In this document: in pieces, positions 8,341-62,639 of the stretch
How the letters are laid out: every line of letters begins with the position of its first letter
Numbering within the stretch: the stretch's first letter is position 1
Assembly (NCBI RefSeq): GCF_030297555.1
Contig: NZ_AP028136.1
Span: forward strand, 1,612,001-1,676,000
Origin: Polynucleobacter sp. HIN5
GTDB lineage: Bacteria; Pseudomonadota; Gammaproteobacteria; Burkholderiales; Burkholderiaceae
DNA length: 64,000 nt
Direction of reading: 5' to 3'
Translations under genes and position numbers: made by a program
The notes under the pieces: generated by a model
Database searches by the model: none
What the model was told of the DNA's origin: nothing
Seen by the model: the letters and a program-made list of their open reading frames with translations, nothing else

Positions 8341-8619
8341 TTAGCGTTTATTCACTGCGTCTTTAAAGGACTTGCCAGCAGAAAATTTGACCGTCTTAGA
8401 GGCTGCAATCTTGATTGGTTCGCCGGTCTTTGGGTTACGCCCCATTCGGGCTGCGCGTGAACCCAAGGAAAAGCTTCCAAAGCCCACCAATTGCATCGTA
8501 TTTCCTTTGGCAACGCTCGCCTTGATCGCATCGAGAGCTAAATTAAGAACCTCCTCTGCTTTGGTTTTACTTAAATCCGCTCCATCTGCAATCACATCCA
8601 CTAAGTCTGCTTTTGTCAT
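8341..8619 (-). CDS. hupB: HU family DNA-binding protein
   Basis: 92-residue nucleoid protein that bends DNA as a dimer. It has the bacterial histone-like signature GFGSFSLGSRAARMGRNP (about 46-63) with the flexible arm GRNPKTGEPIKI. I chose the ATG at 8619 with GGAAA upstream; the frame also opens at TTG 8625. It is monocistronic and divergent from the PBP4 gene. Confidence 0.96.
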   Translation of the reverse strand: MTKADLVDVIADGADLSKTKAEEVLNLALDAIKASVAKGNTMQLVGFGSFSLGSRAARMGRNPKTGEPIKIAASKTVKFSAGKSFKDAVNKR

Positions 8620-50757: not shown

Positions 50758-51198
50758 ATGTTTTTAGAAGAACATGATTTACAAACTTCCACCAAGATCG
50801 ACACCTTGGAAGCAAAGTACCGCGAGATTGACGCATTTACGCGTCAACTGTTTGCCGATATGGATGAGGCAGAACGGACCCAGCATGAAGCCATCAAGCG
50901 TCGCTTTGGGGACCTCAAAATGACTCTGTTTCAAAACTCAGACCACATCTTGAGTCAGGCCAACCATCCTGATTCAGGGTCTGCCCAAAAGGCACTTCGC
51001 GAAGCACAACTCAATATGATGTTCGATTGGGAACAATTTGGGCTTACAGAGGATATGTTTTTCAAGTTATATCAATGCCACCGTAATCAACTGATTGGTG
51101 ATGCCGATCTGAAAGCCCGAGCTACTTTAATCGAACAGATATTGACTATTGAAATCAATCTCACCTTGCTCTTCAAAATCCGTCAGCTGACTCCATGA
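50758..51198 (+). CDS. Hypothetical helical protein
   Basis: 146 residues, highly charged and mostly helical (KYREIDAFTRQLFADMDEAE; LIEQILTIEINLTLLFKIRQ). No family recognised. It lies between DUF1653 and the ModA-like gene; its end overlaps the latter's ATG (ATGA), so the three form one transcription unit. Confidence 0.7.
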   Translation: MFLEEHDLQTSTKIDTLEAKYREIDAFTRQLFADMDEAERTQHEAIKRRFGDLKMTLFQNSDHILSQANHPDSGSAQKALREAQLNMMFDWEQFGLTEDMFFKLYQCHRNQLIGDADLKARATLIEQILTIEINLTLLFKIRQLTP

Positions 51199-51950
51199 GC
51201 CTTCGTAAAATCCTACTAATCCTTTCTTGTTCTCTCTTTGCTGGGCTTACACACGCTCAGGCGACATTTGTCGTCGTCGCTGCCAATATGAAAGATGCGT
51301 TCTCTGAGATTCAGAATCAGTTCCAGAAAGAAAACAAGGGTGAATTAAAGGTCATCTATGGCTCCTCCGGAAACTTTGCCTCACAAATCATGAACGGCGC
51401 TCCGTTTCATTTGTTTATCTCCGCGGACGAGCAATACCCCCTTGAATTATTCAAAAAAGGTAAAACGATAAACGAAGGGACCGTCTATGCCATCGGAAAA
51501 TTAGCGCTGATTACAAATAAAGGTAAAGGAATTGCTCTAGATGGCTCCAGAGGAAAAATGGCAGATGCCATTAAGAAAGCAAACAAGATTGCTCTGGCAA
51601 AGCCTGAACTCGCACCGTATGGTCGGGCTAGTGTTGAGTATTTAAAAGCCAATAATCTTTGGGAGCTGGCGAACTCGAAGATTGTGTATGCCGACAATAT
51701 TGCGATGGCAGCAATGTTTGTAACGACAGGCTCTGCTGACATCGGCTTTACAGCCCTCTCTATCGCCAAATCATCAGCCCTTGCCAGACAGATCTCCTCT
51801 GTTGAACTAAACGATGGCTATCAACCAATTAAACAAAGGATGGTATTAATTAAAAATCCTACTCCAGATGCAATACGGCTCTACGAGTTTATGCAAGCGC
51901 CCAAAGCAAAAGAGATATTGATGGCCCACGGTTATCAAATTGCACAGTAA
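51195..51950 (+). CDS. modA: ModA-like molybdate ABC transporter substrate-binding protein
   Basis: 251 residues with signal peptide (ending GLTHAQ). Periplasmic oxyanion-binding fold: VVAANMKDAFSEIQNQF (about 27-43), YGSSGNFASQIMNGAPFHLFISADEQYP (about 55-82) and GSADIGFTALSIA (about 177-189). Members bind molybdate or tungstate. No modB/modC follows; the island begins instead. It is the last intact chromosomal gene left of the tRNA-bounded island. Confidence 0.9.
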   Translation: MSLRKILLILSCSLFAGLTHAQATFVVVAANMKDAFSEIQNQFQKENKGELKVIYGSSGNFASQIMNGAPFHLFISADEQYPLELFKKGKTINEGTVYAIGKLALITNKGKGIALDGSRGKMADAIKKANKIALAKPELAPYGRASVEYLKANNLWELANSKIVYADNIAMAAMFVTTGSADIGFTALSIAKSSALARQISSVELNDGYQPIKQRMVLIKNPTPDAIRLYEFMQAPKAKEILMAHGYQIAQ

Positions 51951-51980
51951 TCGCAATAATTGGCTTGTTTTGCTACAATT

Positions 51981-52027
51981 CTCAGTTCGGCGAATTAGCT
52001 CAGCTGGTTAGAGCGACGGAATCATAA
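51981..52027 (+). repeat. Left 47-bp direct repeat (island boundary)
   Basis: CTCAGTTC plus the first 39 bases of tRNA-Met, identical to 60974-61020. The homology stops exactly in the anticodon loop. Confidence 0.93.
51989..52027 (+). pseudogene. Truncated tRNA-Met (5' half only)
   Basis: 39 bases identical to the first half of the tRNA-Met(CAT) at 60982, from the acceptor 5' strand through the D-arm, anticodon 5' strand and anticodon loop (GACGGAATCATAA). The 3' half is missing: after ATAA the sequence continues GCTCGAAGTTTC instead of TCCGCAGG. A TACAAT box (51974-51979) just upstream is probably the original tRNA promoter, so the fragment may still be transcribed into the element that follows. 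Confidence 0.93.
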
Positions 52028-52051
52028 GCTCGAAGTTTCTGAAAAATCCTC

Positions 52052-52242
52052 AATCGTTTCAAAGACATAACGAAACCACAAAAGTTGGTGTGTGCACATT
52101 GTGCGACACACTAGACTACACACACCTTGGAGGCCTTATGAATAAAGGCTGGCCAGTTAGACACACGGAGTCCACGAGAAAATGTGCGGTGATTATAAAA
52201 AAATAGATAACTTGAATTTGAAAGTGTCGTTTTAAACGACAC
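52052..52242 (+). repeat. Element A: conserved ~190-bp non-coding repeat, copy 1
   Basis: Starts AATCGTTTCAAAGACATA and ends with TGTCGTTTTAAACGACA (52225-52241), a near-perfect inverted repeat (9-bp arms in this copy). It is collinear with 57500-57695 with almost no gaps; long blocks are shared, for example CTTGG.(G)GCCTTATG, ACGGAGTC and GAGAAAATGTGC. Hairpins are preserved by paired changes (GCCTTATGAATAAAGGC versus GCCTTATGGCTAAGGGC). No open frame is conserved. It sits 24 bp after the truncated tRNA. The terminal hairpin plus CATTTTT could end a transcript. Confidence 0.85.
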
Positions 52243-52560
52243 CATTTTTACTATGCCTCTCAGCTCATCAGCACTAAGCGCAATCCGTGGTCACTTAATC
52301 TCTAAAACCCATTGATTTTGAATCAAACGACGTATTTCTAGACCTGTAGTCAAAAATCACCAGGGGTTGGGAAAAAGTAGTTAAGGCTTGATTTTTTATT
52401 TACTGAGTTTTGTTGATGCCGAATTAATTTCAGCCGCTTATGATTATTCTGTTTGCGTTTCAAGTCTTGTAGCATCATCAACAATGCGATTTAGAGGCAT
52501 AATCTTTAATTATGCTAGCTTCATATGATTTATGGATTAAATGGAGTTGAATTTACTATT
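52243..52560. other. Non-coding stretch, no gene seen
   Basis: About 318 bp after element A without a convincing open frame on either strand. It contains several AT-rich patches but no recognisable integrase remnant. It includes the 3' end side of the leftward GGDEF gene. Confidence 0.5.
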
Positions 52561-53406
52561 TTAAGGAATGGGTTGGGCCTCTTTCCAAATGTAACTCTGA
52601 TTTCTTCCTAACTGTTTAGCTTGGTACATAGCCAAATCAGCTTGCTGAAAATATTTATTTGCTAAGTCCTTATGGATGAAATCAAGCTCTTGTTCGGGAT
52701 CGAAAATAGAAATTCCACTACTGATTGTGATTTTTATTGGCTCATGATTGACGCGTGCTATGTCGTGATCCTGTAATGCTTTACGAAGACGCTCAGTAAT
52801 TTCAAGAGCATCAGCTTCATTGGTAGCTGGCAGGATTACCAAAAACTCCTCACCACCAACCCGGCCTAAGATATCAACATCACGCAATCCCTTTTGATAG
52901 AAAGCGACTAAATTTTTTAGCACAACATCTCCAACCAAATGCCCATAGCGATCATTTACAAACTTGAAGTGGTCAATGTCAATCAGGACTAGCGCCAATG
53001 GCTGGTGATTACGAAAACTACGACTGATCTCTTGCTCCAAGCGATGAAAGGTTTCTTGGCGTCTTAAGGCACCTGTCATAGCATCTGTTTTGGCATCAAG
53101 CTCGAAAATATGACTTTGATCTACCAACGATGTGTAGCTCCGAATCATGTAATACATGCCGAGCATAATGAGTGCTGAAATCACTACTGCCTTTATGGCA
53201 TCAATCTCATTAAAAATCTTACCTTCTAAAGGCGACACCAAAGGATGTATTCGTGTTAACACCATCATCAAAAATCCCAACATTAAAAATAAACAGGGGA
53301 TTCGGTAAATGGTTGCTTTGCGAAAAAGCTGAAAAGAAAAATAAACCGCTATTATCTGAAACAATAAAGATATGACATACAAATTTACGACGATGTTATG
53401 TGTCAT
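52561..53406 (-). CDS. Membrane GGDEF diguanylate cyclase
   Basis: 281 residues. Three membrane spans in the first 95 residues, then a GGDEF domain (about 105-275) with active GGEEF in GRVGGEEFLVILP and the product-inhibition I-site RDVD five residues before it. It should make c-di-GMP from GTP at the membrane. Its ATG overlaps the stop of the HD-GYP gene (TAATG), so synthesis and breakdown enzymes are coupled. Confidence 0.95.
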   Translation of the reverse strand: MTHNIVVNLYVISLLFQIIAVYFSFQLFRKATIYRIPCLFLMLGFLMMVLTRIHPLVSPLEGKIFNEIDAIKAVVISALIMLGMYYMIRSYTSLVDQSHIFELDAKTDAMTGALRRQETFHRLEQEISRSFRNHQPLALVLIDIDHFKFVNDRYGHLVGDVVLKNLVAFYQKGLRDVDILGRVGGEEFLVILPATNEADALEITERLRKALQDHDIARVNHEPIKITISSGISIFDPEQELDFIHKDLANKYFQQADLAMYQAKQLGRNQSYIWKEAQPIP

Positions 53407-54587
53407 TAGGTTGATGCCATTATTTTTTGAAATTCATCTTGTTCAAGCAGTTGGCATGCCGCCTCACAGATAGCCGGATCTAAAGTTTTACCCGCCTCAG
53501 CCTTAACTTGAAGGATTGCTTTTTCCAATCCTAAACCAGGACGATATGGTCGATGAGAGGATATCGCCTCAATCGTGTCAGCAACAGCTAATATTTTCGC
53601 CTCCGGGATAATTGAGTCTCCAGATAATTTATTAGGGTAGCCACTTCCGTCAAGGCGCTCATGGTGCTGATAAACCGCTTGTGCAATCGGCCATGTAAAT
53701 GGAATATCTTTGAGTATGTTGTATCCGGTCTTTGGATGCTCTTTGATTAAAGTCATCTCTATCTCAGTGAGCATTGAGGGCTTTGTTAAAATTTCGGCAG
53801 GCGTAGCAATCTTCCCGATATCATGAACTAGTGCAGCAAGATATAGTCCTTTTATTCTCTTTTCCCCCCAACCCAATTTTCTTGCAATTGCTTGGGATAG
53901 TAAGGCGACCTTTTTTTGATGTCCTGCTGTATAGGGGTCTCGCCATTCCATTGTTTTTGAGATTGCCTCAATGGTTGCATTTAAGGAATCAACTAATTGA
54001 GTATTTAATTGTTCGCGCTTGGTGATTTCTTCATCAAGCAGGCGTTGCTTTTCAATAGCCGCGAGTCCAAAGCCAATCTCTTTAGCCAAACTCGCAAATA
54101 ATTGAACCTCAATCTCACTAAACGCATTTGGCAGATTGGCATAGACCGTAAGCGCACCAATTGCTTGGGGTTCATGGTTTTTAATTGGAACAGCAATCAC
54201 TGAGCGAATGCCATATAGTTTAGAGCGCTCTCGCCAAGGTAAAAAGCGAGGGTCATTCTCAGAATCCGCAATCAAAACAGGCAAACTGGTTTGAATACAA
54301 AGACCGGTGGGTCCCTGTCCTGCTGATGTGTCAGGCGACCATTTCACATCAATTCCCTTGGCGTAATCTGCTGCTGCGCCATGCGTACCGATTACCTGAA
54401 CGGTTTTTAGATCGTCATGCATAGCCAGACCAACCCAAGCCAGTATATAAGGTGATTGATTAACGATTGCGTTACAAACACCTTCGATGAGCTCATCCCG
54501 GTTGTTCGAGCGAACTAAAGCAGAGGATGCCTTCGCGTACGCAAGTAGCGCCCAGTTTTGCTTCTGCAGTTCATTAAGACTTTCCAA
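53406..54587 (-). CDS. GAF + HD-GYP domain c-di-GMP phosphodiesterase
   Basis: 393 residues. N-terminal GAF domain (about 10-180). HD-GYP domain (about 200-385) with YTAGHQKKV, HDIGK (HD pair), HHERLDGSGYP (GYP motif) and VADTIEAISSHRPYRPGLG, all key residues intact. HD-GYP enzymes hydrolyse c-di-GMP. The only upstream start is TTG 54587, with AGG about ten bases before. Divergent from the glycosyltransferase gene and coupled to the GGDEF gene. Confidence 0.93.
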   Translation of the reverse strand: MESLNELQKQNWALLAYAKASSALVRSNNRDELIEGVCNAIVNQSPYILAWVGLAMHDDLKTVQVIGTHGAAADYAKGIDVKWSPDTSAGQGPTGLCIQTSLPVLIADSENDPRFLPWRERSKLYGIRSVIAVPIKNHEPQAIGALTVYANLPNAFSEIEVQLFASLAKEIGFGLAAIEKQRLLDEEITKREQLNTQLVDSLNATIEAISKTMEWRDPYTAGHQKKVALLSQAIARKLGWGEKRIKGLYLAALVHDIGKIATPAEILTKPSMLTEIEMTLIKEHPKTGYNILKDIPFTWPIAQAVYQHHERLDGSGYPNKLSGDSIIPEAKILAVADTIEAISSHRPYRPGLGLEKAILQVKAEAGKTLDPAICEAACQLLEQDEFQKIMAST

Positions 54588-54734
54588 TGCTTGACTACCT
54601 ATTGATTGGATTAAAGGTCAATGATACGCCGGAAACTACTAATTTCGATGGATAAGTCAATCAAAATCGCCATACATGCGTAATTAAGTCAGGCTCTTGT
54701 ATAATGACCCAGAGCAGCGTGTTAACCTGAATTC

Positions 54735-56039
54735 ATGGCTTATCTAACAATCAAAGCCAAATACGTGATCTGCCTCATGGCGGCACTTGCCTGGATGGTA
54801 ATCTCGATTTGGTTATCACTACCGTGGTATCAAGATCTTTCTCAGGTTATTGGCTGGCCACTCGCTATTTTCTTTATCTCATTTATTGCCATTATTCCGG
54901 GCTATATGAATGCGTTTGTGATTAGCTCCTTGCTGCTTGATAAGCGCCCACCTATCTTACAGGAACAGCACTACCCTCCCATTACGATTTTGATTGCAGC
55001 CTATAACGAGGCTTCTGACATTGCAACGACACTGAATAGTATTTTTCAAGAGGACTATCCCAATGCGGTTCATGTCATTGTGATTAATGATGGCTCCCGA
55101 GATGATACGGCTACTATCGTGAGTCGGTTTAAGCCCGATCATCCCCAGCTCCAGTTGATTGATTTACAAAAAAATGGGGGGAAAGCCAATGCGCTCAATC
55201 GTGGGCTAAAGGAATGCACGACAGATATTGTGATCACAATTGATGCAGACTCCTACTTATTAAAAGATGCATTGCGTCACCTCGTGGGACGCTACTTGTC
55301 GGATCCTAGCAACACTCGCGCAGTTGCTGGCGAAATCTTGATTCGGAATTCACGGGAGAACTGGATTACTAAAGCACAGGAATGGGATTACTTTTTAGGG
55401 ATCGCTTCGATAAAGCGGGTTCAGTCACTATTTCAGGGAACCTTAGTCGCACAGGGCGCTTTTTCACTCTATGACCGTAAGACTGTTGAGGCCCTTGGAG
55501 GCTGGCCCGATAAGGTGGGCGAAGATATTGTGCTGACCTGGAAAATATTGCTTGCAGGCTACCGCGTAGGGCATGCCGAGAATGCCTGCGCATTCACAAC
55601 CTGTCCCAATACCTTAATGAAATTTGTGAATCAACGTCGACGCTGGTCGCGAGGTTTGATTGAGTCCTTTAAAGAAAATTGGCCCATTCTTTTTAAAGCA
55701 CAGAAAAATACGATTTACATTTGGTGGAACACCCTCTTCCCAATCATTGATGTGGCCTACACCTTTGGCTTTATTCCTGGATTAATCCTTGCTGGCTTCG
55801 GTATTTACTGGATTGTAGGTCCGATGACCATTGCCTTAATTCCGATGGCATTTCTACTCAATATTGTGATGTACAACCGTAGTAAAGCCATGTTTGTTCA
55901 AGAAAATCTTCATATCCGAAAAAACTATCTTGGTTTCATTTTCTATGTTTTGGCCTATGGCATGGTGTTGCAACCGGCCTGTGTTTGGGGATATGTCAGC
56001 GAGATTTTTAATCTTCGTAAGCACTGGGGCACCAAATGA
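54735..56039 (+). CDS. PgaC/IcaA-like processive GT2 glycosyltransferase
   Basis: 434 residues. Two N-terminal membrane spans, then a GT2 domain: ITILIAAYNEASDIATTLNS (about 83-102), VINDGSRDDT, metal motif TIDADSYL, GEDIVLTW (catalytic Asp), QRRRWSRG (QxxRW); three C-terminal spans. This is the layout of synthases for poly-N-acetylglucosamine and similar polymers. It overlaps the next gene, an outer-membrane beta-barrel, by 4 bp (ATGA). Part of island cargo 1. Confidence 0.9.
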   Translation: MAYLTIKAKYVICLMAALAWMVISIWLSLPWYQDLSQVIGWPLAIFFISFIAIIPGYMNAFVISSLLLDKRPPILQEQHYPPITILIAAYNEASDIATTLNSIFQEDYPNAVHVIVINDGSRDDTATIVSRFKPDHPQLQLIDLQKNGGKANALNRGLKECTTDIVITIDADSYLLKDALRHLVGRYLSDPSNTRAVAGEILIRNSRENWITKAQEWDYFLGIASIKRVQSLFQGTLVAQGAFSLYDRKTVEALGGWPDKVGEDIVLTWKILLAGYRVGHAENACAFTTCPNTLMKFVNQRRRWSRGLIESFKENWPILFKAQKNTIYIWWNTLFPIIDVAYTFGFIPGLILAGFGIYWIVGPMTIALIPMAFLLNIVMYNRSKAMFVQENLHIRKNYLGFIFYVLAYGMVLQPACVWGYVSEIFNLRKHWGTK

Positions 56040-56974
56040 TCAGACTGCTTGGCGGATTCATCCTATTGCTCCTAACAACGCAGGTTGGCGCTCAAGATGC
56101 AACTCTCAAGCCAAAACATGCCATATCAATTCCAGAAGTGTATGTATCGTCCGATAGTGAGGGCTTTTTAACTCATAAGTACAAAGCTAGCATCTATCCT
56201 CTATATCAGAATGCCGAAAACTACACTGGACTGCAATACCAACACAATTACTTTAGTCAAAGTAATTGGAACTCTACTGCCGAGCAATATACGTTAGTAA
56301 CCAAGAAAATTAATCCACGCAACGGTCTCGGTTATAACCTCAATCTTGGCTATAACTTGGAGGGTGGCTATAAATTGCTGACGACTGACAGCAATTACTC
56401 CACTATGCTTACCGACACCACACGGGCAGAAATCATGGTGTTTCGGGATCGGGTGGAAACCCAGAACTCTCTCACGAATGGGATTTACTACACCATGGGT
56501 GGAGCCAGTATTGAACAGCAAGTCATGGAACGGCTAAGTATTGTATTGTTCGGAGGCAATCTCTACTTCTCAGACACCAACACTCGCCCCACCCTGCGTG
56601 CCAGAATCATTTATGACCTCATTCCCGATTACGGCATTACAGCGCAGTTGCGCTACCGTCAGTATCGCGATACGAATACCAATGTCGCGAATAACTACTT
56701 CAACCCAGATAGTTATAACGAATCCATGTTGGCCTTAGGGATGCGTCAGCGTATCCAAGGCTGGATGATCAATGGCACTGCTGGTGTAGGGCAGCAAAGC
56801 ATTGATCAAGGCCCCAGTACAACTACACAACTCTATGAGTTAGCGCTCACGAGCCCTGTCAATGCGAATGATGTATTCTTACGAACAAAAGCAGGATATG
56901 GTAAATCAGCGGGCTTTTTGGGCCCCAATTATTTTTACCGCTACTTTATGGCTGAACTGATTTTCCCTTTTTAG
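56036..56974 (+). CDS. Outer-membrane beta-barrel, PgaA C-terminal-like
   Basis: 312 residues. Signal peptide (ending QVGAQD), then alternating amphipathic strands rich in Tyr/Asn and ending in a terminal Phe (LIFPF), as in outer-membrane barrels. It has no TPR part, unlike full PgaA. Coupled by overlap to the glycosyltransferase gene, so it is probably the exit pore for the polymer (inference). Confidence 0.78.
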   Translation: MIRLLGGFILLLLTTQVGAQDATLKPKHAISIPEVYVSSDSEGFLTHKYKASIYPLYQNAENYTGLQYQHNYFSQSNWNSTAEQYTLVTKKINPRNGLGYNLNLGYNLEGGYKLLTTDSNYSTMLTDTTRAEIMVFRDRVETQNSLTNGIYYTMGGASIEQQVMERLSIVLFGGNLYFSDTNTRPTLRARIIYDLIPDYGITAQLRYRQYRDTNTNVANNYFNPDSYNESMLALGMRQRIQGWMINGTAGVGQQSIDQGPSTTTQLYELALTSPVNANDVFLRTKAGYGKSAGFLGPNYFYRYFMAELIFPF

Positions 56975-56990
56975 GAATAGTAGCGAGACA

Positions 56991-57485
56991 ATGAACGACG
57001 ATATTGAAAAAATCTATGCCAAATTAGTGGCACATGAAACTGAGATCATTAACCTGCGCAAAGGCTACATGATCGTTAATGAGCGCTATACCAAAGCACT
57101 TGCCTCTCTGAAAGAACTGACCAGCAGTGCTGCTGAAGCTGCCAAGAAAGCTTGCTTAGCAGCTGAAAATGCCAGAGGCGCGACCGAGCGCTGTGCTAAT
57201 GCCGCTAGAGAGGCAGCCAGTCAATCGGTCATTGCTGCGGCTGAAGCGGCGGCCGAGGCTGCCAAGTTTTCGGCAGAGGCGGCTATTCAAGCAGCCGCTG
57301 CTGCATCTTCTGCCGCTGCTGCAGCGGCGGCAGCAGTCGCGCACCAGGCAGAGGCCTCATCACTTCAGGCATCCGCTGAGGCAGCCTCAGCAACAAAACG
57401 TGCGGCTGAAGCAGCAGCTGAGGCAGTCAAGCTGGCTAACCTGGCATCCGACTCTGCAAAATATGCCCACAACCAGAAACCTTGA
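56991..57485 (+). CDS. Ala-rich helical protein
   Basis: 164 residues. A helical N-terminal region (1-45) is followed by about 100 residues that are more than half Ala, with heptad-like Ala/Glu/Lys spacing (for example AAREAASQSVIAAAEAAAEAA), predicting a long helix or coiled coil. No signal peptide. It follows the barrel gene by 16 bp on the same strand. Its 3' end is only 15 bp from element A'. Function unknown; perhaps a structural or regulatory partner of the polysaccharide synthase. Confidence 0.7.
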   Translation: MNDDIEKIYAKLVAHETEIINLRKGYMIVNERYTKALASLKELTSSAAEAAKKACLAAENARGATERCANAAREAASQSVIAAAEAAAEAAKFSAEAAIQAAAAASSAAAAAAAAVAHQAEASSLQASAEAASATKRAAEAAAEAVKLANLASDSAKYAHNQKP

Positions 57486-57499
57486 GCGATCGTTTTTAA

Positions 57500-57695
57500 A
57501 ATCGTTTCAAAGACATAGCACCACCACCAGAATAGGTGCTTTACACACTGTGCATCACACTTGATTACACACAACTTGGAAGCCTTATGGCTAAGGGCTG
57601 ACGAGTTAATCTTACGGAGTCAATGAGAAAATGTGCTGCGATTGTATGCACAAAATTATCGATGACTCTACGAAGAATTGTCGTTTTAAACGACA
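57500..57695 (+). repeat. Element A': second copy of the ~190-bp non-coding repeat
   Basis: Begins AATCGTTTCAAAGACATA, as copy 1, and ends TGTCGTTTTAAACGACA (57679-57695), identical to the end of copy 1. The middle is about two-thirds identical by eye. An extra hairpin-like CGATCGTTTTTAAAATCG precedes it (57487-57504). The 5' hairpin (GCACC/GGTGC) differs in sequence from that of copy 1, which suggests folding matters more than sequence. No tRNA fragment lies upstream of this copy. Confidence 0.85.
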
Positions 57696-57769
57696 TTTAA
57701 TTACTTAAAAATTGGCCTTCAGTAGGAAAGGGCCTGTAACTAACTTTTCAATACTCAAACTACTAACTA

Positions 57770-58084
57770 TTAATCCACACCCCAAACAACTGGTTCATGA
57801 TCCTTGAGAGCTTGACGTAAAAGCATCAAAAATGGATATGCCCTTCGCCCTAACGGATCTTCAGAGGCTGGCTGAACTTCCTCGTCAGAATTAGAGGCCT
57901 CGGATGCGCTATTTTGTTCAGTGTCGATGACCGCTTCTAAGCGGGCGATATACGTTGGGATTTGCTCCGGAAGAAAAATACCTTTATTTTCAAATGGACG
58001 CTCAATCGCATTAAAAATAGATTGTGTTAAGTCATCTAGCATGATGACGGGGGCAGCATTTTTTGTCCGAAATTTGTGAATCAT
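57770..58084 (-). CDS. DUF1840 family protein
   Basis: 104 residues. It starts MIHKFRTKNAAPVIMLDD, includes KGIFLPEQIPTYIARLE (about 34-50) and ends RRAYPFLMLLRQALKDHEPVVWGVD, the full DUF1840 pattern common in Betaproteobacteria. Function unknown. It is the only gene between elements A' and B. Confidence 0.85.
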   Translation of the reverse strand: MIHKFRTKNAAPVIMLDDLTQSIFNAIERPFENKGIFLPEQIPTYIARLEAVIDTEQNSASEASNSDEEVQPASEDPLGRRAYPFLMLLRQALKDHEPVVWGVD

Positions 58085-58141
58085 ATACCTAGCTTACCAT
58101 TATTAATTAAAGTTGGTTCAGAATTTGGTAACCACAAATTG

Positions 58142-58206
58142 ATCGTTTGAAACGATATGGTGAAAAGCTCACGGATGGGATATTCCCTTGGTTGAGCTTG
58201 GCTTGG
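58142..58206 (+). repeat. Element B, copy 1 (near-palindrome plus conserved tail)
   Basis: A near-palindrome ATCGTTTGAAACGAT (58142-58156) is followed by CTCACGGATGGGATATTCC...GTTGAGCTTGGCTTGG. The tail is shared with 60910-60947, where the same order occurs next to the intact tRNA-Met. Confidence 0.8.
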
Positions 58207-58285
58207 ACGGAATAGGCTGAGGCCGAGGTTGCCCTATCGTTGACTGCCACAATATATTGAGTTTCGACTTAATAAGCACTTTCAT
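58169..58285 (-). CDS. Possible 38-aa peptide after the copper ATPase gene
   Basis: On the - strand an ATG near 58285, preceded by GAGGAGAAT, opens a 38-codon frame starting MKVLIKSKLN with a Pro/Ser-rich end. Its last third lies inside element B, so the frame may be accidental. The longer frame to 58378 overlaps the ATPase gene and is rejected. Confidence 0.25.
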   Translation of the reverse strand: MKVLIKSKLNILWQSTIGQPRPQPIPSKPSSTKGISHP

Positions 58286-58287
58286 GA

Positions 58288-60597
58288 TCATTCTCCTCTT
58301 AAACGCAATGCATTTCCAATTACTGAGGCTGAACTCATACTCATAGCAAAGGCCGCAATCATTGGTGATAGCAGCCAACCTGTCAAAGGGTAAAGAAGCC
58401 CAGCCGCTATTGGTATACCAAATGAGTTATATAGGAATGCAAAGCTTAAGTTCTGTTTCATGTTTCTAACAGTAGCTTCTGATAGGGAACGAGCAACTGC
58501 AATACCCCGTAAATCACCTTTGACCAATGTAATGTGGGCGCTATTAATGGCTACATCAGTACCGGTACCCATCGCAATACCAACATTTGCCTTAGCTAAA
58601 GCGGGAGCATCATTAATACCATCACCTGCCATTGCAACAATACAACCTTCATTCTGTAAACGTGTCACCAACTCCAGCTTATCCATGGGCTTCACTTCAC
58701 CATAGACCTCCTTGATTCCAAGGCGCCCCCCTACTGATTTTGCAGTGGTTAAACCATCACCGGTAGCCATCACAATATGTAGACCGGCATCTCTGAGACT
58801 CTGCAAGGCTTCTGCACTAGTTGCTTTAATCGGATCAGAAACCACTAGTAAGCCAGCCAGGTCCCCATTAATCGCTAGGTGCATTACGCTAGTGCCCTCA
58901 GATCGCAATTGTTCTGCCTGCATTGCTAAGCTAGTAACCGATACCCCTAACTTCTCCATTAAGCTTGCATTGCCAAGAGCTAAATTTAGTGTGCCAATGC
59001 TGCCCTTCACCCCAATGCCTGAAATCGATTCAAAGTGATCGGGCTTATCTAGCATCAGCTGGCGCTCTTTTGCCACACGCACAATGGCATTGGCAAGAGG
59101 ATGTTCGCTTCCTTGATCAAGACTGGCCGCCAATCTCAAAATCTCATCATTCTCAAATCCAGGATTAGCGACCACTTGTTCAAATATTGGCTTTCCTTCG
59201 GTTAGAGTGCCTGTTTTATCAATAATCAAGGTAGTGACCTTGCGCAAGTTTTCAATTGCGGCGGCATCACGAAATAAAATTCCTTTACTTGCCCCTTTAC
59301 CCGTGGCTACCATAATCGACATAGGCGTAGCTAGTCCCAAGGCGCACGGACAGGCAATAATCAAGACGGATACGGCGTTGATTAGTCCAAATACCCAGCT
59401 AGGATCTGGGCCAAAGAATCCCCATGCAAAAAATGAAATTAATGCGACCAACACCACTACAAAGACAAAATATCCGGCAACCACATCAGCCATTCTTTGC
59501 ATTGGAGCTCGGGATCGCTGTGCTTGAGTAACCATTTGAACAATTTGTGCCAAAACTGTAGAAGACCCAACCCGTTCTGCCTTAATAATTAGAGCTCCAT
59601 TAGTATTCATCGTGGCACCAATCACTTTATCACCCACTTTTTTGCTCACAGGCAATGGCTCGCCAGTGAGCATGGACTCGTCGATGGCGCTAGAGCCTTC
59701 CATAATGAGTCCATCAACTGGAACTTTTTCTCCCGGACGCACTCGTAAAGAATCGCCAATATGAACCCTTTCTAGGGGAATGTCTTCCTCGACTCCAGCG
59801 GCCCTAATTCTTCTAGCTGTCTTGGGCGCCAACCCCAATAAAGACTTAATTGCCGCAGAAGTTTGTGAGCGCGCTTTCAGTTCTAGTATTTGCCCAAGTA
59901 ATGTTAAGGAAATAATGACAGCAGACGCTTCAAAATACACACCTATTCTGCCCATCGACATAAATGATGCAGGAAATAATTGGGGTGCAATGGTTGCGAC
60001 GACGCTATACATAAAAGCGGCGCTGGTACCAAGCCCAATTAAGGTCCACATATTGGGACTACGATTCTTAATAGAATCGATGCCCCTCTGAAAAAAGGGC
60101 CAACCAGCCCAAAGTACGATCGGCAGAGTAAGAAATAACTCCGCCCACGTTTGGGTACGCATAACCATTAAATTGAGTTGATGCCCAAACATAGCCAAGG
60201 CGGTGACCGCGATTGTTAATGGCAAAGTCCACCAAAAGCGTCTTTGAAAACTGAAGAGCTCAGGATTATCGTCTTCCCCTAACTCTGGTATTAATGGCTC
60301 CAAGGACATGCCACAAAGAGAGCAACTGCCTGGATGATCCTGCTGAATCTCAGGATGCATTGGACAGGTGTATATGGCTCTGGCCACGGGCTTGGTAATT
60401 AGTAAGCCACCCAAACCCTTATCTAGATAATTATTTGGTAAACGAATGAATTTTTCTTTACAGCCATTGCTGCAAAAGTAATACATCAACTCGTTAAGGA
60501 AATAACTGTGTCTAGACTCACTTGTCACGGTCATGCCACAAACCGGGTCTTTTAAATTACTGAGCGCATCGGCATGTTGGCAATTGCTATCAACCAT
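58288..60597 (-). CDS. Copper/silver-type P1B ATPase with YHS domain
   Basis: 769 residues. N-terminal YHS domain (DPVCGMTV, about 17-24), then a heavy-metal-binding segment YTCPMHPEI...[10 protein letters not shown] (about 76-105), eight membrane spans, the CPC ion motif in [12 protein letters not shown], the phosphorylation site DKTGTLTEG and [11 protein letters not shown]. There is no HMA domain; YHS plus heavy-metal-binding domains match copper/silver exporters such as SilP-like proteins. A Met-rich small membrane protein gene lies upstream on the same strand. It is the main gene of island cargo 2. Confidence 0.93.
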
Positions 60598-60654
60598 GTA
60601 AATCCTTATTTTTCAATCTACGTGATACTTAATCACTACAACTACTTCGCCTGA

Positions 60655-60777
60655 TTACTTTTTACTGAAAAATATATATTTGCTCAAAGCAACAATTGAA
60701 AGGATTAGGGCAATCAAAACCAAAATACCAACAAACCCCATCCCGCCCATCATCGAACCATCCATCATCTGATACAT
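60655..60777 (-). CDS. Met-rich 40-aa membrane peptide
   Basis: MYQMMDGSMMGGMGF followed by one membrane span (VGILVLIALILSIVALS) and a basic tail (KYIFFSKK). The ATG at 60777 has a perfect GGAGG ribosome site. Met-rich segments bind Cu(I), and the gene is 57 bp upstream of the copper-type ATPase, so a copper-related accessory role is likely (inference). Confidence 0.75.
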   Translation of the reverse strand: MYQMMDGSMMGGMGFVGILVLIALILSIVALSKYIFFSKK

Positions 60778-60881
60778 TTAGACCTCCGATCAAAAGAACC
60801 ACCTCTTTCATCCTACGCCTATAAACAAAGAGGGTCTACATAAATCCTCCGAATTGCCAAATTAATGGTTTAGATGCTAAA

Positions 60882-60947
60882 TGTCGTTTTAAACGACAAA
60901 TTCCATAACCTCACGGATGAGATATTTCCCAGTTTGAGCTTGGCTGG
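60882..60947 (+). repeat. Element B', copy 2, next to the intact tRNA
   Basis: TGTCGTTTTAAACGACA (60882-60898), identical to the ends of A and A', is followed by CTCACGGATGAGATATTTCC...GTTTGAGCTTGGCTGG as in element B. A TATAAT box (60967-60972) downstream should be the present promoter of the tRNA. Confidence 0.82.
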
Positions 60948-60973
60948 CTCTTGAGGCCTTTTACCTTATAATC

Positions 60974-61020
60974 CTCAGTTCGGCGAATTAGCTCAGCTGG
61001 TTAGAGCGACGGAATCATAA
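60974..61020 (+). repeat. Right 47-bp direct repeat (island boundary)
   Basis: Identical to 51981-52027; includes the 5' half of the intact tRNA-Met. Confidence 0.93.
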
Positions 61021-61058
61021 TCCGCAGGTCCGGGGTTCAAATCCCTGATTCGCCACCA
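60982..61058 (+). tRNA. tRNA-Met (CAT anticodon)
   Basis: 77 bases with encoded CCA. The acceptor stem GGCGAAT/ATTCGCC pairs perfectly; D-arm GCTC/GAGC; anticodon stem CGGA/TCCG with an A-C mismatch at its outermost pair; loop ATCATAA with anticodon CAT; T-arm CGGGG TTCAAAT CCCTG with one G-T pair. Elongator Met is most likely; an Ile tRNA (lysidine-modified CAT) cannot be excluded from sequence. It marks the right end of the island and carries an island-side promoter. Confidence 0.95.
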
Positions 61059-61273: not shown

Positions 61274-61399
61274 ATGGATTCAAAAACACAACGAGAGCGC
61301 GATGAAGCGGTTAAACGCAAATATATTTACAAGCCCGTCTTCATTATTTTTGGCATCCTGAATCTCTTAATCATTGCCCTATTTGTTATTTCTCTTTAG
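61274..61399 (+). CDS. Small membrane protein (41 aa)
   Basis: 41-residue frame: a charged N-terminus (MDSKTQRERDEAVKRKYIYK) and one span (VFIIFGILNLLIIALFVISL). It follows the 48-aa gene by 6 bp and overlaps the end of the convergent reductase gene by 14 bp. Layout resembles small inner-membrane regulators, but no family is recognised. Confidence 0.5.
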   Translation: MDSKTQRERDEAVKRKYIYKPVFIIFGILNLLIIALFVISL

Positions 61400-62639
61400 T
61401 TGTATTCTTCACTTCATCTTTGATTTCACTGGTATTTGCGACTAGCCCGTAAGGTTTGACGAGTTGCCAAACATGATTGGGCACCATGTTTTTCATCTTC
61501 TTTGGCAACTCTCTGCGCAGGTGTAATACCGTTTCAATCGCTTTCATCTCAACCCGTGCTCTTGCAAACTCTAAGCCTCGAGGTCCAATCTTAGGCATGA
61601 GCCACCCGACGATCGGTCTTAACCAATTGGGCATCTGACGCAGTGGTAAACCACCAGCAGCTAACTCAACGTTTTTCATAAACCCTCTAACAGGGCTTGC
61701 ACGATTACCAGCACTTTCTGGTTCAGTAAGTTTTATTTGATTACCTAACAGCTTGAGTAACTCTTCTCCCTGGTGATTGCGCACAATTAACCATTGCTCC
61801 CCAGAGCCGCCCATGTAGCCAACTGTGATATCCGAAAGGGTATTGGTGTAATCCACGCAGGTTCTGCACGTCAATGGGAAAAAGTCGGGTCTGAGTTTGG
61901 ATAATGGCAACATCAAAAATGGAATTGTTTTATTTCGTCCATCTCGATAACGCAACTCCACATGGTAGTCGGCCCTGAACTCTAAATACGTGATTTCTTC
62001 TGGGCTCTCATCAATCAGTTGTAAAAACTCATGAAAGTTCTCCGTGCTGGTGTTGTCTGAACAGGGCGTACCGATCACATAGAGTTTCTTTAGGTTTAAT
62101 TCCTTTTCTAAAGCCCTCAAGGCATAGACCTGACATGGGATTCCAATGACTCCTAGCCGTTGGTAATTTCTCTCTTTGGCCACATCCAGAAGAGCCAGAA
62201 GCGGGGCGTATCCCATCCGCATACCCCGAGCTTGATGGAGCTCTTGAGGATCTGTAATTAGGACTGGCATTGGTCGCCAACGATCATCCGGATCCGGTGC
62301 CATGGTCAAAATGGCATCAACTAAATCATTTTTTAGGAGTTGATTAGCAATCGAAGTGGTAATTCCGGTCCACTGCGCTCCGGCTAGTGGCTCACGCATA
62401 CTTGCGCGGTACATCTTGCGATAGACTCCAAAGAAGAGTTGATCGCCGCTGAATACTCGCGTTTTTCCATGAATTGCTTGTTCAAGAGATTCGTATTGAG
62501 GGTCAATAAACTGACAAGCGCGACCACAACGTTTTGGGTCGGAGGAACGTGAAATTCCGCAATCGGTACAAAGCTCTCGCTCGGGCGCATCGCCCGAGTA
62601 TGAGAGTGATTCAATGCTAATTACTTTTTTACCATCCAA
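61386..62639 (-). CDS. F420 hydrogenase beta subunit family reductase, BciB (divinyl chlorophyllide 8-vinyl reductase)-like
   Basis: 417 residues. N-terminal Cys cluster (RELCTDCGISRSSDPKRCGR) and a second Cys segment LTCRTCVDYTNTLSDITVGYMG (about 272-293), likely iron-sulfur ligands. The whole reads like cyanobacterial BciB, for example EGAQWTGI/LAGAQWTGI, RPMPV, VIGTPC, and KIGPRGLEFAR near the end. BciB reduces the 8-vinyl group of chlorophyll precursors; paralogues in non-phototrophs have other unknown roles. No other bacteriochlorophyll gene is in the window. Start is TTG 62639, overlapping dctM by 11 bp; no in-frame ATG exists nearby. Confidence 0.75.
   Translation of the reverse strand: MDGKKVISIESLSYSGDAPERELCTDCGISRSSDPKRCGRACQFIDPQYESLEQAIHGKTRVFSGDQLFFGVYRKMYRASMREPLAGAQWTGITTSIANQLLKNDLVDAILTMAPDPDDRWRPMPVLITDPQELHQARGMRMGYAPLLALLDVAKERNYQRLGVIGIPCQVYALRALEKELNLKKLYVIGTPCSDNTSTENFHEFLQLIDESPEEITYLEFRADYHVELRYRDGRNKTIPFLMLPLSKLRPDFFPLTCRTCVDYTNTLSDITVGYMGGSGEQWLIVRNHQGEELLKLLGNQIKLTEPESAGNRASPVRGFMKNVELAAGGLPLRQMPNWLRPIVGWLMPKIGPRGLEFARARVEMKAIETVLHLRRELPKKMKNMVPNHVWQLVKPYGLVANTSEIKDEVKNTTKEK

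Follow-up and report, generated by a model that had tools for sequence, protein, structure and literature searches.

An integrase-less, probably composite island at the tRNA-Met 5' half in Polynucleobacter sp. HIN5

How does a stretch of DNA come to lie between two copies of half a tRNA gene when it carries no enzyme that could have placed it there? The question is raised by a segment of about 9 kb in Polynucleobacter sp. HIN5, located in a 64,000-nucleotide stretch of contig NZ_AP028136.1 (positions 1,612,001 to 1,676,000), which is called the window here and numbered from its first letter. A preliminary description presented the segment as a non-autonomous mobile unit with structured ends, moved by an enzyme encoded elsewhere. 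The segment is probably a composite of tandemly accreted integrase-less elements at tRNA-Met, with arms A and B that would be used in trans by a long tyrosine recombinase (longInt). The best reading of the island is that it lacks an integrase, comprises at least two units, is partly decayed, and resembles the cis-mobilizable elements (CIMEs) in kind. The tRNA anchor, the dedicated ends, and the lack of an enzyme in the preliminary description stand, while the single unit gives way to a composite, and movement of the island is suggested by sequence comparison.

The tRNA-Met repeat, the arms, and the empty site

As first described, the island is bracketed by a 47-bp direct repeat of the tRNA-Met 5' half; the repeat is exact and ends in the anticodon loop. 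The intact tRNA-Met at its right border is the only tRNA that ARAGORN finds in the window. Both flanks are of core type, as had been claimed, with a ModA-like gene on the left and a FrhB/FdhB-type gene on the right, beyond which lies an open reading frame (ORF) recognized by eye as a TRAP-type permease. The comparison covered 186 Polynucleobacter genomes, in which G000 is the genome holding the window (1.88 Mb). The left flank has counterparts with 80-86% identity in G001, G127, G058, G128, G174, and G055, and with 69-72% in G050 (69%) and G019, and the remaining matches are weaker. The matching right flank is present in G050, G055, G127, G001, and G128.

An empty tRNA-Met locus, which the preliminary description proposed to look for in relatives, occurs in G050. 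This genome has the ModA-like gene, the motif TACAAT, an intact tRNA-Met, and the same right flank, and the flanks of the island are collinear with it. In the window, TACAAT (51974-51979) precedes the left attachment site (attL), and its context agrees with that before the tRNA in G050 (TTGCTACAATTCTCAG in the window and TTGCTACAATTATCAG in G050). It is read as the native promoter. The arm B' carries its own TATAAT ahead of the tRNA. This arrangement indicates that the island replaces the tRNA 5' half together with its promoter. Integration at tRNA genes usually takes place at the 3' end, and the 5'-half geometry of the window is its mirror image.

The paired elements A and A', the paired elements B and B', and the three 17-bp copies of the preliminary description were all recovered by alignment and exact search in the window. 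A and A' align over 197 bp with 74.6% identity (E 8e-31), and B and B' over 39 bp at 85% or 62 bp at 77% (E 1e-7). Full-length A is found in 4 of the 186 genomes in five copies, namely A and A' of the window's genome and those of G055, G127, and G048. Four of the five directly follow a tRNA-Met half (84% identity to A in G055, 81% in G127, and 77% in G048), and the fifth is A', which is 78.7% identical to the A of G048. Six further genomes match A only at the palindrome and a few adjoining bases. Partial copies were found in G128, where 36 bp follow a tRNA-Met half, and in G055, where 64-68 bp lie at a distance from any such half. B occurs at eight places in the fetched regions, including the two copies of the window. 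It abuts tRNA-Met or its half at six of them, the exceptions being the window's B and one G001 copy, and a 43-bp piece of B adjoins a tRNA-Met stretch in G048. B' is 97% identical to the end of an island in G001 and 89-94% identical to copies in G055 (three) and G058. The expectation that A and B would be found at tRNA loci elsewhere is thus borne out.

Units with A and/or B ends and other cargo recur in G055, G127, and G048, and the fetched stretches of these loci contain no recombinase relative (the G048 locus being only a 12.8-kb contig). One G055 unit has little beyond a RelE/YefM-like pair, named by eye. Also in G055, two units meet in direct succession as palindrome, B, half tRNA, A, and palindrome, the layout that would be expected of a circle junction. 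A Pfam scan of the seven ORFs of the island (matches in five, none in two) found no recombinase, integrase, transposase, replication, or transfer gene, and no relaxase or conjugation family; an origin of transfer (oriT) was not searched for. This agrees with the preliminary description. Its structured ends have no support, either for A as an RNA or for the palindrome as a hairpin (see below). When five copies of A were aligned and folded, the covariation term was +0.76 kcal/mol, with two-sided changes in 3 of 46 pairs.

Table 1. Features of the tRNA-Met island and its borders in window coordinates
Feature	Position	Strand	Basis or remark
Left flank, ModA-like solute-binding protein (SBP_bac_11), core side	51195..51950	+	PF13531
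attL, 47-bp copy of tRNA-Met 5' half up to the anticodon loop	51981..52027	+	exact repeat
Element A, long arm (putative attachment function), ends in palindrome copy 1	52028..52241	+	copies in relatives
Palindrome copy 1, TGTCGTTTTAAACGACA	52225..52241	.	centre +205 bp from repeat end
Cargo, GGDEF protein	52561..53406	-	PF00990
Cargo, GAF and HD-domain protein	53406..54587	-	PF13487/PF13185
Cargo, family 2 glycosyltransferase	54735..56039	+	PF00535
Cargo, 312-aa protein, no Pfam match	56036..56974	+	
Cargo, 164-aa alanine-rich protein, no Pfam match	56991..57485	+	
Element A', second long arm without tRNA core, contains palindrome copy 2 (57679-57695)	57500..57695	+	
Cargo, DUF1840 protein	57770..58084	-	PF08895
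Element B, short arm, degenerate palindrome 58142-58156 (2 mismatches), no tRNA core found	58142..58205	+	
Cargo, P1-type metal (copper-type) ATPase with YHS and HMBD domains	58288..60597	-	PF00122, PF04945, PF19335
Element B', short arm, starts with palindrome copy 3 (60882-60898), TATAAT upstream of tRNA	60882..60973	+	
attR (right attachment site), second 47-bp copy, mostly within the intact tRNA	60974..61020	+	exact repeat
tRNA-Met (CAT), intact, target gene	60982..61058	+	ARAGORN; Rfam RF00005
Right flank, FrhB/FdhB-type protein, core side	61386..62639	-	PF04432/PF04422

Candidate recombinases and the proposed route of movement

Two types of longInt sit at the tRNA-Met 5' half in relatives, the G001 type (P0001, 403 aa) and the G061 type. 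Some homologue of the G001 type (E 1e-20) is present in 95 of the 186 genomes. With at least 66% identity there are 11 matches, and all ten loci fetched from these have the tRNA-Met 5' half about 200 bp upstream. Among the next 20 loci (53-58%), nine have a tRNA-Phe 5' half, one has a diverged tRNA-Met copy, and ten match none of the seven tRNA sequences used for comparison. Recombinases of the G061 type share 91-100% identity with that of G061 and are encoded in G061, G131, G063a, and G063b, within stretches located at tRNA-Met or at its half. Relative to the crossover, the palindromes at the arm ends of these stretches, accepted with at most two mismatches, are placed at +174/+186 or -167 to -170, which is the same layout as in A and B. 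Both types are accompanied by a short recombinase (shortInt) and a homologue of a G000 protein that Pfam calls DUF6641, on which a literature search found no papers. No conjugation family was detected among ten ORFs scanned in the recombinase-bearing relatives. Beyond the genus, a genome scan found longInt relatives with 41-62% identity in Limnohabitans and in some metagenome-assembled genomes filed elsewhere.

In the proposed mechanism, a unit would consist of the tRNA-Met 5' half, the long arm A, a palindrome, cargo, a palindrome, the short arm B, and the next 5' half. A longInt-family tyrosine recombinase supplied by another element would act on A and B, with strand exchange at the anticodon loop. 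Excision would give a circle with the junction palindrome-B-core-A-palindrome; alternatively, the unit would be inserted upstream of a tRNA. On insertion, the chromosomal 5' half and promoter would be left at the far end, and B would provide a new 5' half and a TATAAT box. The inner A' and B would be the remnants of another unit whose tRNA cores have gone. As the helper branch of longInt, the G061 type is slightly favoured by its arm layout.

Several observations weigh against such a role for longInt. No element that encodes a longInt and is itself bounded by A and B was found; the preliminary description had suggested a search for a recombinase with such ends. G001 ends in B (97%), but it matches G128 only to just past the DUF6641 gene and then continues with other DNA and B, and it therefore looks like a fusion or hybrid. 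It is the only one of eight right ends of G001-type elements with B. The other seven (G128, G060, G101, G097, G032, G184, and G090) have a different arm, which rules out B' as the ordinary right end of these elements. The right arms of G001-type elements have a common sequence that differs from B, with ..CACAGCACCAC.. ahead of the tRNA in most. In comparisons of three A copies with four left arms of the G001 type, A was no closer than shuffles in 11 of 12, and the twelfth was marginal (G055 A with G001, z-score 2.8). A is only weakly similar to the left arms of the G061 type (z-scores 1.9 to 5.3 in 12 comparisons with single-base shuffles). The window's genome is without a close G001-type longInt, the best being 46% identical; at G000:373023 it encodes a relative with 35% identity to the G061 type. 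The earlier proposal of an enzyme encoded elsewhere finds partial support in the recombinase elements at the same tRNA half in relatives, and not in a helper with A and B ends.

An explanation that is conceivable but somewhat doubtful is the decay of once autonomous islands, in which deletions would have removed the integrases and left remnants that are now fixed and immobile. The absence of tRNA cores at A' and B, the lack of a close G001-type longInt in the genome, and the appearance of G001 itself as a fusion after deletion are in line with it. In contrast, attL and attR are exact over 47 bp, and units ended by A and/or B recur with different cargo and no recombinase relative in the fetched stretches of G055, G127, and G048. 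The exact attachment sites and the recurring units therefore suggest a way of life and not only decay. Far less credible is homologous replacement between the flanks, or duplication of the tRNA neighbourhood, with A and B as ordinary untranslated regions. Replacement islands with flank recombination hotspots have been described in Polynucleobacter in the portion of PMC5644125 drawn on here, but A and B go with tRNA-Met halves, the order of the flanks is the same as at the empty site, and the folding of the five A sequences gave no covariation support for an RNA.

The 17-bp palindrome

The sequence TGTCGTTTTAAACGACA starts at 52225, 57679, and 60882 and at no other place in the window, and a degenerate copy precedes B. 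First described as a near-palindrome in three identical copies, it is indeed identical in all three, and is better defined as a palindrome of odd length whose central base is T or A, each of them in 51 of 102 de-duplicated contexts. Its 15-bp core GTCGTTTTAAACGAC has five mismatch-free places in the genome, three of which are within the island. The pattern GTCGTTTNAAACGAC is found in 122 of the 186 genomes, with up to 19 per genome, compared with 21 of 186 for a reversed control pattern. In a family sample of 398 genomes, the 17-mer is present in 40 of 61 from the genus and in none of 337 from 24 other genera. It matches 9 of 2.9 million IMG/VR contigs. One of these, IMGVR_UViG_3300037863_000413, is filed as viral and is a longInt/shortInt/DUF6641 element with tRNA-Phe fragments, and the others may be chance matches.

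A tRNA-Phe or tRNA-Met gene or fragment lies within 1.5 kb of 21 of 30 palindrome loci, taken as the first place listed in each of 30 other genomes. Distances from the crossover were taken for palindromes with up to two mismatches. Around 21 tRNA-Met genes or halves, a downstream palindrome is present at nine (+202 to +211 in four, +186 in four, and +174 in one) and an upstream one at nine (-131 in four and -160 to -170 in five). For 104 tRNA-Phe hits, the palindrome is located at -201/-202 in 13 and at +185 to +188 in 12, and other distances are rarer. These counts are not independent tests, because arms within one family share a common origin and the presence of such sites was the reason for choosing the regions. 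A second palindrome, GTCCTTTTAAAGGAC, and its close variants occur about 46 bp from the main one in the tRNA-Phe modules of G084 and G102.

The palindrome was not supported as a hairpin or terminator. The outer arms pair no more than shuffles in 102 contexts, de-duplicated from 170, except for four contexts with at least six extra pairs (about 0.5 expected), and T runs of at least four stand beside 13 of 102 palindromes and 12 of 102 control stretches. A third tyrosine recombinase, int341, occurs in five tRNA-Met elements, G060 (C1:1730374-1731399), G032, G097, G101, and G184, with palindromes on both sides of the gene in four and none in G184. The palindrome as an exchange seam around int341 is not supported either, as homology runs through the palindromes.

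That the palindrome is a site for a regulator, silencer, or other DNA-binding protein without a role in recombination is quite conceivable, though not favoured. Its 17-bp symmetry, the balanced T/A centre, and outer arms that pair no more than shuffles give it the look of a dimeric protein site. Of the 18 gaps that separate identified machinery genes in G097, G060, and G032, 13 contain it, and elements with a G001-type longInt can have ends without it. Exact palindromes are inside ORFs at 26 of 149 sites in the fetched regions, compared with 75% of random points. However, divergent gaps hold only 15 of 120 classified intergenic palindromes (12.5%, and about 20% of random intergenic points). 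Only 4% lie within 30 bp of a start (14% random), whereas 38% of 121 distinct intergenic palindromes lie within 30 bp of a stop (13% random). The spacing from the crossover recurs across different arm families. Two inserts are bounded by palindromes. In G074, compared with G105, the insert is a 4.5-kb operon that includes two genes recognized by eye as likely DNA methyltransferases; in G032, compared with G060 and G097, it is 1.4 kb long, and one of its two palindromes has a mismatch. Both inserts are outside attachment modules, and the relatives have one palindrome copy there.

These inserts lead to a further reading, in which TGTCGTTTNAAACGACA would serve as the joint between modular cassettes, in a system found so far in its family only in this genus. 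This reading is unlikely, and is a lead rather than a finding. Recombination at the palindrome would join attachment modules, built as palindrome, arm, tRNA core, arm, palindrome, to cargo of the form palindrome, gene, palindrome, so that the same cargo could fit tRNA-Met or tRNA-Phe ends before integration in trans by longInt. In a looser third case, two cargo blocks meet at one palindrome in G000:1161192, and in G127 a tRNA-Phe half module stands between them. Such a 5'-half module is nested in the tRNA-Met island of G127 (C1:1585598-1585803) between variant palindromes of the GTCCTTT.. type. An indel scan gave 87 large indels, 35 of them away from tRNA fragments, and only two of the 35 have a palindrome at each end of the insert as well as one at the empty site. 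The other 33 are without the pattern. Many of these are in flanking DNA far from palindromes and some are inside elements, such as the 3 kb that G001 and G128, unlike G058, have inserted between longInt and shortInt. The two inserts could also be explained by deletion between 17-bp direct repeats.

Cargo, known islands, and significance

The cargo of the island has relatives at other integration sites of the genus. The glycosyltransferase and its 312-aa neighbour recur side by side in a tRNA-Phe array of G011 (69% and 66% protein identity), and DNA 72% identical to the ATPase lies beside a longInt in G063. Of 143 tRNA-Met-island ORFs (at least 100 aa, machinery included), 59 have homologues with at least 40% identity in the tRNA-Phe arrays of other genomes, compared with 1 of 281 flank ORFs. 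Among the island ORFs, 28 also match ORFs of the tRNA-Phe flanks, which include recombinase elements across that tRNA. When the machinery is left out and the limits are relaxed, 32 of 110 ORFs form 43 pairs, some being element-associated hypothetical proteins. The cargo pool is, by these homologies, common to tRNA-Met and tRNA-Phe islands. A near-mode plasmid search with the first cargo block gave no match.

The tRNA-Phe loci have arrays of small units downstream of the tRNA, many of 0.5-4 kb and each with a tRNA-Phe 3' fragment (G022:C1:250-13196, G009:C3:372835-388070, G084:C1:2054412-2071957, and others). That tRNA-Phe is also bordered on its 5' side, in G022 and G011, by longInt elements with tRNA-Phe 5' halves. 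A 117-bp piece of the window (8341-8457) is 78% identical to the G092 tRNA-Phe array (C2:1660390-1660506). The window's genome contains a related element with long and short tyrosine recombinases, DUF6641, and a clamp-loader-like ATPase (G000:C1:1149580-1157129), and the cargo beside it (1157229-1162635) is also carried in the tRNA-Met island of G127.

CIMEs, on a definition that draws in part on PMC3146451, resemble the island in keeping attL and attR, in showing no integrase or transfer genes, and in their tandem position beside elements with the same target. The two copies of the 47-bp repeat give the island its attL and attR, at a tRNA half where recombinase-bearing elements sit as well. 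It differs in that its candidate helpers are of the longInt/shortInt/DUF6641 type with no conjugation family in the ten ORFs scanned, in that integration replaces the tRNA 5' half and promoter, and in the palindromes at the arm ends. The nearest described case among those compared is that of the Dehalococcoides ssrA islands, as far as the relevant part of PMC3146451 describes them. They are tandem at one RNA gene, 16 with an integration module and 15 without, and the latter were called possible cis-mobilizable elements. However, they have a CcrB-like serine recombinase, a tmRNA target, and a 20-bp 3'-end repeat.

Tycheposons are likewise tRNA-bounded cargo islands of aquatic bacteria with a tyrosine recombinase, as outlined in the corresponding part of PMC10872708. 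The window island has the tRNA gene at one border but no tyrosine recombinase within, and its units use the tRNA 5' half. That part of the source mentions no palindrome, for which no search was made there. It also describes the additive flexible island of Ca. Methylopumilus, whose recurring 20-bp tRNA-Lys repeats are repeated tRNA fragments as well, without mention of arms and palindrome. Integrons and clusters of attC sites lacking integron integrases (CALINs), in the part of PMC11389934 that concerns them, include recombinase-free cassette arrays that can be mobilised in trans, but the units of the window carry tRNA halves, and Pfam found no integron integrase in the island. The long and short recombinases of G000 score 22.6 and 39.6 bits against TIGR02249, with a cut-off of 265. 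A derivative of an insertion sequence (IS), such as a miniature inverted-repeat transposable element (MITE), does not fit, the ends being direct repeats of a tRNA half with no transposase among the scanned ORFs. The islands of Polynucleobacter asymbioticus are also exchanged between species of the genus, mainly by illegitimate recombination and perhaps phage-borne, according to the part of PMC5644125 that cites Hoetzinger 2017. The words tRNA, integrase, palindrom, and direct repeat are absent from PMC5644125, which holds for that source only. A literature search on Polynucleobacter, integrase, and gene cassette returned nothing on such islands, judging by titles and the beginnings of abstracts. 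The 5'-half target, the shared palindrome, and the tRNA-Met/tRNA-Phe cargo pool are distinctive compared with known islands.

The two longInt types are named as candidate helpers, and B-core-A as their candidate substrate, in an unusual geometry that replaces the tRNA 5' half and promoter. Some factor may read the 17-bp palindrome across different arm families, and if the palindrome were a joint, it would provide another way, beside integrons, to build cassette arrays. If the proposed composite of units used in trans is true, integrase-less units parked at tRNA-Met and tRNA-Phe share a common palindrome, and this would help to explain how abundant freshwater bacteria with small genomes gain and swap niche genes.

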